Source: Rubrobacter sp.
GTDB taxonomy: Bacteria > Chloroflexota > Chloroflexia > Thermobaculales > Thermobaculaceae
Assembly: GCA_016781735.1 (NCBI GenBank)
Contig: JADDPT010000074.1
Span: forward strand, 1 to 35,277
Reading direction: 5' to 3'
DNA: 35,277 bases
Positions within the stretch are counted from its first letter, which is position 1. Every line of letters starts with the position of its first letter. Shown piece by piece: positions 4,756-32,248 of the stretch. Under the pieces are notes generated by a model. The model worked only from the letters and a program-made list of their open reading frames with translations, was not told where the DNA came from and did not search any database. The translations under genes were made by a program, and so were the position numbers.

Positions 4756-5028
4756 TCAGCCCTGCCTGCGCTTTCCGCAGTACACGATACGTCCGTTCCG
4801 GTCCGCATGATACTCGTACTCGCGTGAAACCGAATCGAGGATTATGAGGTAACCGGGCACTGGTCGCGGCGGGTACGTTGCGGCGGGCTCAGGGCATCCG
4901 AGTCCCTCGTCGGGCCACTCGGCATCCTTCGCCTCGACAACTATAACGTCGTGTTCCTGTACTGCGGAGCGGTACGCAAGATCGGTGCGCGCCGCCGCTA
5001 TCGCGTGTTTGAGTTCCGCCGATGCCAA
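4756..5028 (-). CDS. Small conserved-looking protein of unknown function
   Basis: A 90-residue soluble protein. An N-terminal helix (about 3-20) is followed by a strand (HDVIVVEAKDAEWPD), a conserved-looking LGCPEPA turn, a Pro-rich stretch and then GYLIILDSVSREYEYHADRNG. The layout WPDxxLGCPxP...GYxIxLxxxxxxYxYHxD recurs in small uncharacterised bacterial proteins as I remember them; no function is known to me. The start is TTG at 5028, chosen because GGAGGG lies 6 nt upstream. It sits between the BON gene and the PRC-barrel gene on the same strand with short gaps, so co-transcription is plausible. No signal peptide or membrane segment is visible. Confidence 0.75.
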   Translation of the reverse strand: MASAELKHAIAAARTDLAYRSAVQEHDVIVVEAKDAEWPDEGLGCPEPAATYPPRPVPGYLIILDSVSREYEYHADRNGRIVYCGKRRQG

Positions 5029-5063
5029 TCAGTGCCCTCCGTCGAGCGAATGGACTCCCGGCA

Positions 5064-5603
5064 TTACAAGCCCGAGACCGAAAGTTCTTCCCGGACATCC
5101 GTCACGCCGGGCACCCTCCCCGCAACCGATTCGGCGGCCTCGGCGTCTTCCAGCGTACCTACCTGGCCGCGCAATATTACCACGCCGTTAACTGCAAGCA
5201 CCTCTATGTCGAGGTCGAGAGTGAGAGCATCCCTGCCCAACTCCTCATATACCGCCTGCACGAGTTCGTCATCGGTGATGGCCACTCGCTCGTCCTCTCC
5301 CTCGGCACTCAGCATGATCGTGTCGTCTGCGGCCTCTTCCAGGCCGCCAACTACGCGTGCGCCTCCAAGATCATTGGCCTCCGGCACGATGACGGGGTCG
5401 GTCGGTGGAAAGTACGTCTCGCCTCCCTCCGTCGCCAGCATACTGTTGTTAGTGCCGCCCTCGTCGTTCAGGTCGGGCTCCAGCTCATCCAGACTAAGCA
5501 CCTCCGTCTGGGCAAACACATCTTCGTCCTCGGAATAGACCATTTGATCTGCCGCGGCATCCTCACGGGACGCGGCATTCAGTCTGTCGTCCTCATTACT
5601 CAA
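5064..5603 (-). CDS. BON-domain protein
   Basis: A 179-residue acidic protein. The first 100 or so residues are low-complexity and rich in Asp, Glu and Ala. The last 70 form a BON (OsmY/nodulation) domain: DDELVQAVYEELGRD, then LDIEVLAVNGVVILRGQVG, then a helix rich in Glu/Ala and VPGVTDVREELSV. BON domains are thought to bind phospholipid or other envelope surfaces. There is no signal peptide or membrane segment, so the protein is probably cytoplasmic. TTG 5603 is preceded by AAGGAG at 8 nt spacing. It is divergent from the Ser/Thr kinase. A functional link to the kinase is possible from position only. Confidence 0.85.
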   Translation of the reverse strand: MSNEDDRLNAASREDAAADQMVYSEDEDVFAQTEVLSLDELEPDLNDEGGTNNSMLATEGGETYFPPTDPVIVPEANDLGGARVVGGLEEAADDTIMLSAEGEDERVAITDDELVQAVYEELGRDALTLDLDIEVLAVNGVVILRGQVGTLEDAEAAESVAGRVPGVTDVREELSVSGL

Positions 5604-5681
5604 GGCAAGTACTCCTTCGAATCAGTCGGGGCACAGCCCACGGTGATCTCCTATACAAGTCGGATCGGAGGTGCAAGACAA

Positions 5682-7070
5682 GTGCCAGCAGCCCGTTTGA
5701 CACCTGCCTCGCGGCTTCCTAAGATGGCCGCATGGCTAGTTATTTCTCGGCGGAGGTGTGAGATAGCCCTCGCCGACCTACTACTGAACAACCGCTACGA
5801 GCTACTCCGTCCGCTTGGACAGGGTGGAATGGCACGGGTGTATCTGGCGCGCGACAAGTTCCTCGCACGCCAGGTAGCGATCAAGGTGCTGCACCCGTCC
5901 CTGAGTGACGACAGGCGGTTCCTTTCCCGTTTCCGTCGGGAGGCGGAAGCAGCCGCCGCGCTGAACCATCCTCATATAATTAGCGTGTACGACGTAGGCA
6001 ATGATGGCGACCTGCACTACATCGTGATGGAGTACGTGCAAGGCCTGGACCTGAAGGAATTGCTGCTTCAAAGCGGGGCACTACCGCCGCGTCGAGCCTC
6101 GGACCTGGGGGCTCAGGTGGCCTCTGCGCTGCACTACGCACACCAGCGCGGCCTCGTCCACCGCGACGTGAAGCCACACAACATCATGGTAATGCCCTCG
6201 GGACTGGTCAAGGTGGCCGACTTCGGCATCGCTAAGCTCCTCAGCGAGGTCTCCATCAGCGACGACTCGAGCTTGCTTGGCACCGCGCAGTACATCTCGC
6301 CGGAGCAGGCGCAGAACGGCAGCGTCACCCCGCAGAGCGACATCTACTCGCTCGGTGCAGTGCTCTACGAGGCGGTCACCGGGTTCCTGCCGTTTCCCGG
6401 CGAGAACGCAGTCGCGGTGGCGCTCGCGCACGTGCGCGAGCAGCCGGTCAGACCTAGCACGCTCCACACGGATGTACCGTCCGAGTTGGAAGCGATCATC
6501 CTGCGCGCGATGTCGAAGAACCCGCGTGATCGCTTCTCCTCGGCTGAGGAGATGGCGAGCGCTCTCCAGGACTGGGAGCGGGCAACGTACAGCTATGCTA
6601 CCGTCCCCGCCGGCGCCACGGAACCGGTGCAAGCCGGGGAGCGAAGTGTACAACCGACGCGTACACACCGATCTTCCGGACGCTTAAGCGGCTGTGTCAC
6701 GCGGTTCATCGGGCTGCTCACGCTGCTGGGCGTCCTCGGCTTCGTGCCGTTGGGCATCTGGCTATTGAACTACGCCGAAGACGCCCCGAACGCGGCGCCA
6801 CCAGCCGCGACACCAACCTTCATCATCGAGGAGGCATCTCCGACGGCCGTTCCCGCCACTCCGACCCACACACCCACACCGCTGCCGACCGCCGGCCCCA
6901 CCAACACGGCGACTTCCACCGCGACTCCTCCACCGAAGCCGACGTTCGGCAAGACTCCCACGCCGACGCCCTCCCCAACACCAACTGTAACGCCTACTCC
7001 CACCCCTTCACCGACGAGCGCGCCGCGGCCGACCGCCACGCCCTCTGCTACGCCGACGCCTCGACCGTAG
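5682..7070 (+). CDS. Membrane-anchored serine/threonine protein kinase (start unresolved)
   Basis: A Hanks-type kinase. The nucleotide loop GQGGMARVYLA (from nt 5817), VAIK lysine (about nt 5883), HRDVKPHN (about nt 6160), DFGIAK (about nt 6221) and GTAQYISPEQ are all intact. One transmembrane helix (about nt 6700-6770) follows, then an outer tail of Thr/Pro repeats to the C-terminus; there are no PASTA domains. The family phosphorylates Ser/Thr on envelope, division and translation proteins. The start is uncertain. GTG 5682 has GGAGG 10 nt upstream and is used here. ATG 5724 has no ribosome site and lies inside the -10 of a strong promoter (5697-5725). Downstream of that promoter no in-frame ATG/GTG/TTG precedes the kinase fold. 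See the separate finding. Confidence 0.9.
   Translation: MPAARLTPASRLPKMAAWLVISRRRCEIALADLLLNNRYELLRPLGQGGMARVYLARDKFLARQVAIKVLHPSLSDDRRFLSRFRREAEAAAALNHPHIISVYDVGNDGDLHYIVMEYVQGLDLKELLLQSGALPPRRASDLGAQVASALHYAHQRGLVHRDVKPHNIMVMPSGLVKVADFGIAKLLSEVSISDDSSLLGTAQYISPEQAQNGSVTPQSDIYSLGAVLYEAVTGFLPFPGENAVAVALAHVREQPVRPSTLHTDVPSELEAIILRAMSKNPRDRFSSAEEMASALQDWERATYSYATVPAGATEPVQAGERSVQPTRTHRSSGRLSGCVTRFIGLLTLLGVLGFVPLGIWLLNYAEDAPNAAPPAATPTFIIEEASPTAVPATPTHTPTPLPTAGPTNTATSTATPPPKPTFGKTPTPTPSPTPTVTPTPTPSPTSAPRPTATPSATPTPRP
5697..5725 (+). promoter_or_regulatory. Strong predicted promoter of the Ser/Thr kinase gene
   Basis: TTGACA (5697-5702) and TAAGAT (5720-5725) are 17 bp apart, an almost consensus sigma-70 type promoter. 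Transcription would begin near 5732, where an ATG (5732-5734) sits at or next to the predicted first base. The elements lie inside the open kinase frame, so they conflict with a kinase start at 5682 or 5724. Confidence 0.6.
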
Positions 7071-20031: not shown

Positions 20032-20766
20032 GTGAGCATGGCCGAGAGCGTGGAGATCTCTGCTACCTCCGTGGATGACGCTATAGAGTTGGCGCTCGCC
20101 CAGCTCGGGAGGGAACGAGCAGAGGTAGAGGTGCAGGTCCTGCGGAATCCGGGGGAACCGGACGAGCACGGCTACGCAAGCGACGAGGCTCTCGTTCTCG
20201 TAACTGCTCTTGACGCCACGGCCATGGAGAGCGGAACTTCTCAAGCGCGTGCGCCACGGGCACGCAGGAGGCAGCAACTCTCCCCCGGCGACCGGATGCG
20301 TGTGGCCGAGAGCGCCCAGGAGATGCTCAGTGATCTACTGCACCACCTCGGGATCGTTGCGAGCTGCCACGTTTCTCCGCAAAGCATGAACACAAGCGAC
20401 CCGGAGGCCCCAGTCATCGCTGAGGTCGAGGGTGAGGACCTGGGAGTGCTGATCGGCCGGCGTGGCGACAATCTCGCTGCCCTACAGTATATCCTCGGTC
20501 TAATGGTTCAGAAACAAGTCGGGTTGTGGCCGAATCTTCAGGTCGACGTGGCGGGATACCGCAGGCGGCGCGAGGAAACCCTGGAAGGTCTGGCCCGCAG
20601 GATGGCCCGACGAGTGCTGGAGACTCAGCAACCTTTCACATTCGAACCTATGCCGGCCCGGGAGCGCCGCATCCTGCACGTCACCATTCAGGACGACCGA
20701 CGGGTGGAGACAGAAAGCATCGGCGAAGGCGATGATCGCAGGGTGGTGATCTACCCTGCGGAGTAG
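20032..20766 (+). CDS. jag: Jag/KhpB-type RNA-binding protein
   Basis: A 244-residue cytoplasmic RNA-binding protein. The Jag N-terminal domain (about 5-50) is followed by an acidic/basic linker, a type II KH domain with the GxxG loop in VLIGRRGDNLAALQYILGLM (about 138-160), and an R3H domain (MPARERRILHVTIQDDRRVETESIGEGDDRRVVIYP) at the C-terminus. KhpB proteins bind small RNAs and affect cell-envelope synthesis in Firmicutes. The position after yidC is the usual one. GTG 20032 is used; ATG 20038 is equally possible. The 3' end probably overlaps the PfkB-like gene. Confidence 0.94.
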   Translation: MSMAESVEISATSVDDAIELALAQLGRERAEVEVQVLRNPGEPDEHGYASDEALVLVTALDATAMESGTSQARAPRARRRQQLSPGDRMRVAESAQEMLSDLLHHLGIVASCHVSPQSMNTSDPEAPVIAEVEGEDLGVLIGRRGDNLAALQYILGLMVQKQVGLWPNLQVDVAGYRRRREETLEGLARRMARRVLETQQPFTFEPMPARERRILHVTIQDDRRVETESIGEGDDRRVVIYPAE

Positions 20767-21616
20767 TCCCGTCTCCTCCCATCACGGAGAACCCGACTTC
20801 CTGGCTATAGGACACGTCTCCAAGGACCTGACACCCGACGGCTTCAGAGTTGGTGGAACCGTCACGTACGCAAGCGCCCTGGCCGTCAGGCTGGGACTGC
20901 ACGCAGCCGTCGTAACTAGCTGTGGCGAGGATATGCCCGTCGCGCGAGCGCTGGAAGGGGCGAGCGTGAGCGTCCGGCCCAGCCCTCACACGACCACATT
21001 CCGCAACACGTACTATGGCTTTGCGCGTCAGCAAGTCATTTCCGAACATGCATCCATGATTGGACTCAGTGATGTGCCGCCAGAGTGGAGATCCGCCCCT
21101 GTGGTATTGCTTGGTCCTGTCGCCGGTGAGCTCCGCCAGGACCTCTTCCAATCGTTCCAGAACTCGCTCTTAGGTGTGACTCCCCAAGGAATGATGCGCG
21201 CATGGGCCGGCGAAGGGCTAGTGCATGCCATCCGCTGGACGGAGGCAGAACAGCTGCTGACCGGCGTGGACGTCCTGGTAGTGAGCGAGGAGGACCTACC
21301 CGACCAAAGGGAGCTGGCGAGATATGTCCAATTAGTGGAGATAGTAGCTCTGACCCACAGCGAGCGCGGGGCTACAGTCTATGAGAGGGGCGTGGCCCGC
21401 AAGTTTCCGGCGTATCCGTGCAGTCCGACAGACCCTACCGGGGCGGGGGATGTTTTCGCAGCGGCGTTCTTGCTTGAACTGCACGGCTCCGGCAGCATCG
21501 AGCTAGCGGCTCGGTTCGCCAACAGCGCCGCATCGCACGTCATCGAGGTGGAGGGGCCGGGTGCCCCAACTCGGGAGCAAATAGAAGCTCGCATAGCCGC
21601 AGCCGAGTCACGGTGA
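20756..21616 (+). CDS. PfkB-family carbohydrate kinase-like protein (non-canonical start)
   Basis: A ribokinase-fold protein of about 286 residues. The first beta strand and glycine pair read DFLAIGHVSKDL ... RVGGTVTYASALAVRLG (GG at about 33-34), and the ATP/anion-hole signature is DPTGAGDVFAAAF (Asp232 the likely base). The reading frame is open from 20750, just after a TGA at 20747, but has no ATG, GTG or TTG before 20933. Starting at 20933 would remove the conserved N-terminal region. CTG 20756 (GGTGG 9 nt upstream) is used; CTG 20801 (GGAG 11 nt upstream) is an alternative. It overlaps jag by 11 bp and the next gene by 4 bp. The substrate sugar or nucleoside cannot be named. Confidence 0.8.
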   Translation: MRSSPVSSHHGEPDFLAIGHVSKDLTPDGFRVGGTVTYASALAVRLGLHAAVVTSCGEDMPVARALEGASVSVRPSPHTTTFRNTYYGFARQQVISEHASMIGLSDVPPEWRSAPVVLLGPVAGELRQDLFQSFQNSLLGVTPQGMMRAWAGEGLVHAIRWTEAEQLLTGVDVLVVSEEDLPDQRELARYVQLVEIVALTHSERGATVYERGVARKFPAYPCSPTDPTGAGDVFAAAFLLELHGSGSIELAARFANSAASHVIEVEGPGAPTREQIEARIAAAESR

Positions 21617-31353: not shown

Positions 31354-32127
31354 CTAGGCACCGCCGCCGACGCTCTGCATCAGCCCACCGTCCACGAAGT
31401 ACGAACTGCCCGTCACGTAGCTGCCGTCATCGGATGCGAGGAGGAGCGCAACATTGGCGATCTCCTGTGGCTTCCCCGGCCGTCCCATCGGGATCCGGCT
31501 TGTACTCTGCTGGGCTTGCTCGGGATCCTCTAGCTTCTCAGCCGTCATCGGGGTGGCGATCATCCCAGGGGCGATGTTGTTGACCCGAACGCCTTTCGGG
31601 GCGAGCTCCAACGCCATCGTGCGGGTTACGTTTCGGAGGCCACCCTTCGCCGCGTCGTAAGCGACACCACCGGGCGATGGTATCTCCTCGTGCACGCTCG
31701 TGATGTTGATGATCGAACCGGAACCCCGCTCGGACATGTGCTTTCCCGCGGCCTGCACGAGCGCCCAGGGGCTAACGAGGTCTATGTTGAGGACCCGAAC
31801 GAAGTCGTCAAGTGGAGTGCTGAGCGAGTCCTCGACAGCCGCGCCGGTGCCCGCGCAGTTTACGAGAATATCTAGGCTTCCCAGCCTTTCGAGCGCCTCA
31901 ATGAACAGCATCCTTGCGTTGTTCGGATCGGCGAGGTCGGCCTGCGCCGTGTCGGCCGACGCACCGTTACTGCGTATCTGCTCCGCGGTACTACGCGCGC
32001 CCTCGGCGTCGCTGCCGTAGTGCACCAGCACGTCGGCGCCTTCCCGTCCGAACGTTATCGCGATCGCCTGTCCGATACCACTGTCTGCGCCGGTAACCAG
32101 CGCCTTCTTCCCTTCGAGCTTGCCCAT
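31354..32127 (-). CDS. Short-chain dehydrogenase/reductase
   Basis: A 257-residue classical SDR oxidoreductase. The cofactor site is TGADSGIGQAIA (about 13-24), NCAG replaces the usual NAAG, and catalytic Ser and YxxxK are in NITSVHEE and YDAAKGG. The C-terminal VDGGL and SYVTGSSYFVDGG are family hallmarks. It resembles glucose 1-dehydrogenase and 3-oxoacyl-ACP reductase-like members; the substrate cannot be assigned. An Arg near the second strand is not evident, so NAD(H) or NADP(H) preference is undecided. ATG 32127 has GGGAGG upstream. It is divergent from the protease operon. Confidence 0.92.
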   Translation of the reverse strand: MGKLEGKKALVTGADSGIGQAIAITFGREGADVLVHYGSDAEGARSTAEQIRSNGASADTAQADLADPNNARMLFIEALERLGSLDILVNCAGTGAAVEDSLSTPLDDFVRVLNIDLVSPWALVQAAGKHMSERGSGSIINITSVHEEIPSPGGVAYDAAKGGLRNVTRTMALELAPKGVRVNNIAPGMIATPMTAEKLEDPEQAQQSTSRIPMGRPGKPQEIANVALLLASDDGSYVTGSSYFVDGGLMQSVGGGA

Positions 32128-32248
32128 CTGCGCCTCCCACTCTATGTTGTTTCGGCCCTACGGACGCAAGCGATGTGCCAGTCAGCCTTCGCGCGGGTAG
32201 CGGGTGTGCGTCAAACATCTCCCTGCCCGCACGCGCAGGCCCTCGGCT

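Follow-up and report, generated by a model that had tools for sequence, protein, structure and literature searches.

A conserved non-AUG start: probable initiation at AUA in a Ser/Thr protein kinase gene of Thermobaculaceae

The 35,277-nucleotide stretch of DNA analysed here (the window) carries a Ser/Thr protein kinase gene whose reading frame offers no ordinary start codon between its promoter and its kinase domain. Where does translation of this gene begin: at an unusual codon, at a canonical codon further upstream, or in another frame, joined to the kinase through a frameshift or separated from it by an error in the assembly?

The gene (5763..7070, plus strand, 435 aa) is identified by a profile match to PF00069 (E 1e-53, 257 of 263 positions covered) and by orthologues in six relatives. 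The kinase domain is complete and contains its catalytic motifs (G-loop, K41, HRDVKPHN and DFG); C-terminal to it come one probable membrane segment and a Pro/Thr-rich tail. PknB/PrkC-type bacterial Ser/Thr kinases likewise combine a PF00069 kinase domain with a probable single membrane segment, whereas the window kinase gives no match to PASTA repeats and carries the Pro/Thr-rich tail instead. The comparison comprised seven Thermobaculaceae genomes (Chloroflexota) of five genera, among them the window's own genome (1.9 Mb, 78%-complete) and the finished genome of Thermobaculum terrenum (G004). The kinase gene is found in all seven, and its product shares 71–77% identity with the six orthologues; in their alignment conservation begins at residue 2, and A2 and L6 are invariant. 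A convergent DinG-like helicase gene lies behind the kinase in both the window and T. terrenum.

Transcription of the kinase could be directed by a sigma-70-type promoter on the plus strand (-35 TTGACA 5697-5702, -10 TAAGAT 5720-5725, spacing 17), which the original prediction had described as near-consensus. This description is borne out: a promoter scan finds it to be the sole sigma-70-like site within 5000-6000 (10/12 matches; 0.3 sites expected), and the pattern (G)TTTGACAC-N17-TAnnAT is kept in 7/7 genomes. Judged from the promoter, the transcript would start at about 5732, giving a predicted 5' untranslated leader at 5732..5762 (plus strand). The distance from the end of the -10 box to codon 1 is 37 nt in the window and 41, 41, 44, 47, 47 and 47 nt in the relatives, whose leaders contain in-frame stops; the leader peptide is not conserved among the seven genomes. 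An RNA structure masking the start was rejected as a candidate: compared with shuffled sequences, the leaders gave z values from -1.2 to +1.6, none markedly better, and they have no common shape.

The Shine-Dalgarno sequence GGAGG (5752..5756, plus strand) lies 6 nt before ATA 5763..5765 (plus strand), and GGAG(G) is present 6-8 nt 5' of the homologous codon 1 in every genome of the family sample. This codon is ATA in five of them (the window species, T. terrenum and three congeners, so that three of the five ATA species represent one genus), ATC in one (G002) and GTG in one (G003). ATA or ATC therefore occupies the position in 6/7 genomes and ATG in none. The promoter, ATG 5732-5734, GGAGG, TGA 5759-5761 and ATA 5763-5765 are all located where the original prediction had placed them. 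Its statement that the kinase frame lacks a canonical start downstream of the promoter is also confirmed, the first in-frame ATG, GTG or TTG being codon 23 from ATA, inside the glycine-rich loop. A refinement is that the frame contains ATG 5724-5726 (MAAWLVISRRRCEIALAD...), which overlaps the -10 box and is thus located upstream of any transcript from the kinase promoter. In the ATC species, ATG, GTG and TTG are all absent from the upstream in-frame stop to codon 23. Of 98 kinases from outside Thermobaculaceae, Chloroflexia outgroups included, all 98 show a canonical start in frame ahead of the Arg-Tyr pair with which the kinase domain begins. The distance from the start to the Tyr of this pair is mostly 8-11 codons in the Chloroflexia outgroups, and it is 11 codons from the window ATA. 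Kinase translation very probably starts at AUA 5763-5765, as judged from this comparison of homologous codons. The pairing of GGAGG with ATA 5763, one of the options listed in the original prediction, gains support from its recurrence across the family, and the kinase appears well supported by the comparison as a new example of a rare but known class, genes with a conserved non-canonical start codon.

An N-terminally extended kinase could be produced from another promoter, with the true start at ATG 5724 or GTG 5682. The window frame would allow this, as it has no stop in the 251 codons before ATA, where both ATG and GTG occur. In all six relatives, however, a stop ends the frame 2-24 codons before codon 1, and in five of them ATG, GTG and TTG are absent between this stop and codon 1. 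Moreover, the long open frame of the window runs antisense to a conserved BON gene, and ATG 5724 overlaps a -10 box that is itself conserved. An upstream start, including the GTG 5682 start proposed originally, is thus very unlikely. Translation could also begin at codon 7, the first six residues being leader; GTG is found there in T. terrenum and TTG in three species. But the window has CTA at this position, and two relatives likewise lack a canonical codon at it. A Shine-Dalgarno sequence before codon 7 is missing, and in 7/7 genomes the existing one has the spacing that suits codon 1. With A2 and L6 invariant besides, a start at codon 7 is highly improbable.

The mini-ORF MASYFSAEV-stop (5732..5761, plus strand) is a real frame and probably not a functional one. 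An ATG six bases past the -10 box is present in two of the seven genomes, those of the window species and G003, and the peptides that it opens (MASYFSAEV and MQRPRQPAGDSAWR, respectively) are unrelated; the window frame ends just 5' of codon 1, and that of G003 ends 10 nt into the gene. Leaderless translation of MASYFSAEV, after which ribosomes ending at TGA 5759-5761 would reinitiate at ATA one base on, would make use of an ATG at the predicted +1 and of a TGA one base short of ATA, and G003 likewise has an ATG at the same place. The other five species have no such ATG and still lack AUG at the kinase start. A leader mini-ORF opened by ATG, GTG or TTG is absent from 3/7 genomes, and the short frames of T. 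terrenum and G002 bear no resemblance to that of the window; where such an ORF exists, both peptides and frames differ. Neither a short ORF that is conserved and stops close to the start, as in uORF or leader-peptide coupling, nor conserved overlapping frames with a fused product, as in a programmed frameshift, was found in the family, where no upstream peptide is conserved in any frame. The regulated frameshift or mini-ORF coupling suggested by the original prediction consequently fails as a general mechanism. Reinitiation at the window locus, which could do no more than supplement the AUA start locally, is improbable. Judging by its distribution among the genomes, the ATG probably falls on the predicted +1 by coincidence.

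A fused N-terminus (MASYFSAE plus kinase) could be concealed by a programmed frameshift or by a surplus base in the assembly, given that loss of a single base near 5759 would bring the two frames together. When N-termini of the orthologues are aligned, which had been proposed as the check, a MASYFSAEV-like start is found in no relative in any frame. Leader lengths differ by non-multiples of three, the same ATA arrangement is seen in independent assemblies, the finished one of T. terrenum among them, and the kinase sequence is not continued upstream; a fused N-terminus is therefore scarcely credible. The best reading of the locus is an AUA start that neither depends on the mini-ORF nor involves a missing base or frameshift.

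Conservation of the third base of ATA by itself proves little, since ATA is a common isoleucine codon here (26% of Ile codons in the window's genome and 54% in T. terrenum), and it was rejected as stand-alone proof. At four-fold sites compared between the window and T. terrenum, third bases are saturated (24% identity), which means that there was enough time for a change from ATA to ATG. The lack of any species with ATG at codon 1 suggests selection for a weak start. As the non-AUG start is kept across Thermobaculaceae, low and possibly IF3-tuned synthesis of the kinase is probably what is selected. The GTG of G003 counts against this, because a strictly IF3-rejected codon is not universal in the family.

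General laxity of start codons in the lineage was considered and rejected on the basis of a survey of 176 non-overlapping reciprocal-best pairs, for which 529 kb from the window's genome was set against 1.6 Mb from T. terrenum. A rule flagged about three dozen pairs, which were then inspected by eye. Starts are ordinary nearly throughout, and only for the kinase do the two genomes share one and the same non-canonical start; most flags represent alignments that extend over the ribosome-binding site, and the others are candidates seen in just one of the genomes. An adenosylhomocysteinase-like gene of T. terrenum (C1, near 846450, plus strand; identified by eye) has an apparent CTG start behind GAGG, where the window's genome has ATG. 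Met tRNA genes in the sequence read, which is part of the genomes, are of ordinary CAU types, and neither an unusual initiator tRNA nor a UAU tRNA reading AUA was found in it.

The region upstream of the kinase is shared with a divergent BON-domain gene (5064..5603, minus strand; PF04972, 4e-13), and a similar divergent ORF is present in 7/7 genomes. TGGCAC-N5-TTGC, the sigma-54 -24/-12 pattern, is found on the opposite strand, nine bases before the kinase -35 box. This predicted sigma-54-type promoter of the BON gene (TGGCACTTGTCTTGC, 5673..5687, minus strand) is kept ahead of the BON-domain-like ORF in all seven genomes. RpoN is encoded in five of the seven; it was not found in the 78%-complete window genome or in G006. 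The combination of the motif with RpoN in the genome agrees with a sigma-54 promoter. The kinase and the BON gene would thus share a control region with two promoter types. A pattern search of the window yields two sigma-54-type sites against 0.13 expected. The second, a perfect site at 32166-32180 (minus strand), precedes an SDR-type dehydrogenase-like ORF (31354-32127, minus strand) by 39 bases.

Another gene of the window, a PfkB-type gene after jag (20750-21616, plus strand), also has no ATG, GTG or TTG near its conserved N-terminus. The likely start is CTG 20756-20758, which follows GGTGGTGAT within the end of jag. This CTG recurs in 6/7 genomes, which proves little, since the overlapping jag codons also fix it.

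infC, the textbook gene with a start controlled by IF3, was chosen as a positive control for non-canonical starts. In 7/7 Thermobaculaceae genomes it begins with ATC behind GGAGG and has no usable canonical start, so IF3-type start codons are used in this lineage. For the kinase, with the position of the start, the Shine-Dalgarno sequence, the promoter and the lack of AUG established by comparison of the genomes, the most likely course of initiation is as follows. A transcript with a short leader would begin near 5732, and the strong Shine-Dalgarno sequence GGAGG, six bases before AUA, would bring 30S subunits to this codon. The ordinary initiator tRNA could pair with AUA with one mismatch in the third position. 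Because of this mismatch initiation would be weak and expected to be held down by IF3 proofreading. IF3 would reject most of the AUA complexes, leaving a low kinase level that follows IF3 activity. By analogy with infC and sigR, for which it was demonstrated elsewhere, the kinase start is probably under IF3 proofreading, and an excess of the kinase may be harmful. The chances that IF3-limited expression of the kinase is functionally important appear about even. A more tentative proposal, which we consider possible and somewhat doubtful, is that the kinase and IF3, sharing a class of start codon, are linked in such a way that initiation fidelity sets the level of phospho-signalling, and a fall in IF3 activity would raise the synthesis of both.

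With its conserved AUA start, this signalling kinase of a deep and little-studied lineage is one more regulator among the few genes that may be under start-codon proofreading. Since the seven species include a cultured thermophile with a sequenced genome, the claim lends itself to a direct test. Initiation was reportedly obtained from all 64 codons by Hecht et al. in 2017; to our knowledge, very few bacterial genes are on record with an AUA start that is conserved within a lineage.

The start codon of infC is AUU in E. coli, AUC in Streptomyces and AUA in S. aureus (PMC5472188, PMC13009471). Like the kinase, infC of other bacteria has a lineage-conserved AUN start behind a strong Shine-Dalgarno sequence; the kinase, however, is a signalling protein and not IF3, and the direct autoregulatory loop is absent. 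In S. aureus and B. subtilis, ccpN starts with AUA (PMC13009471). In poor medium, non-canonical starts of S. aureus yield about 10% of the output of AUG; in rich medium, the ccpN AUA yields up to 30% (PMC13009471). The kinase resembles ccpN as a regulatory gene with a conserved AUA start and a strong Shine-Dalgarno sequence. It differs in that CcpN is a transcription repressor with experimental initiation data, whereas the kinase start is predicted from sequence comparison and its codon 1 mixes ATA, ATC and GTG. In Streptomyces, IF3 represses the GTC start of sigR, and the circuit is broken when a canonical codon takes its place (PMC5472188). The sigR codon is another one, a longer sigR isoform exists whereas none is conserved for the kinase, and IF3 repression, demonstrated for sigR, is proposed for the kinase. 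Both are regulatory genes with a conserved weak start behind a strong Shine-Dalgarno sequence, of the kind that automatic annotation tends to miss, and gene callers limited to ATG, GTG and TTG will misplace the N-terminus of the kinase.
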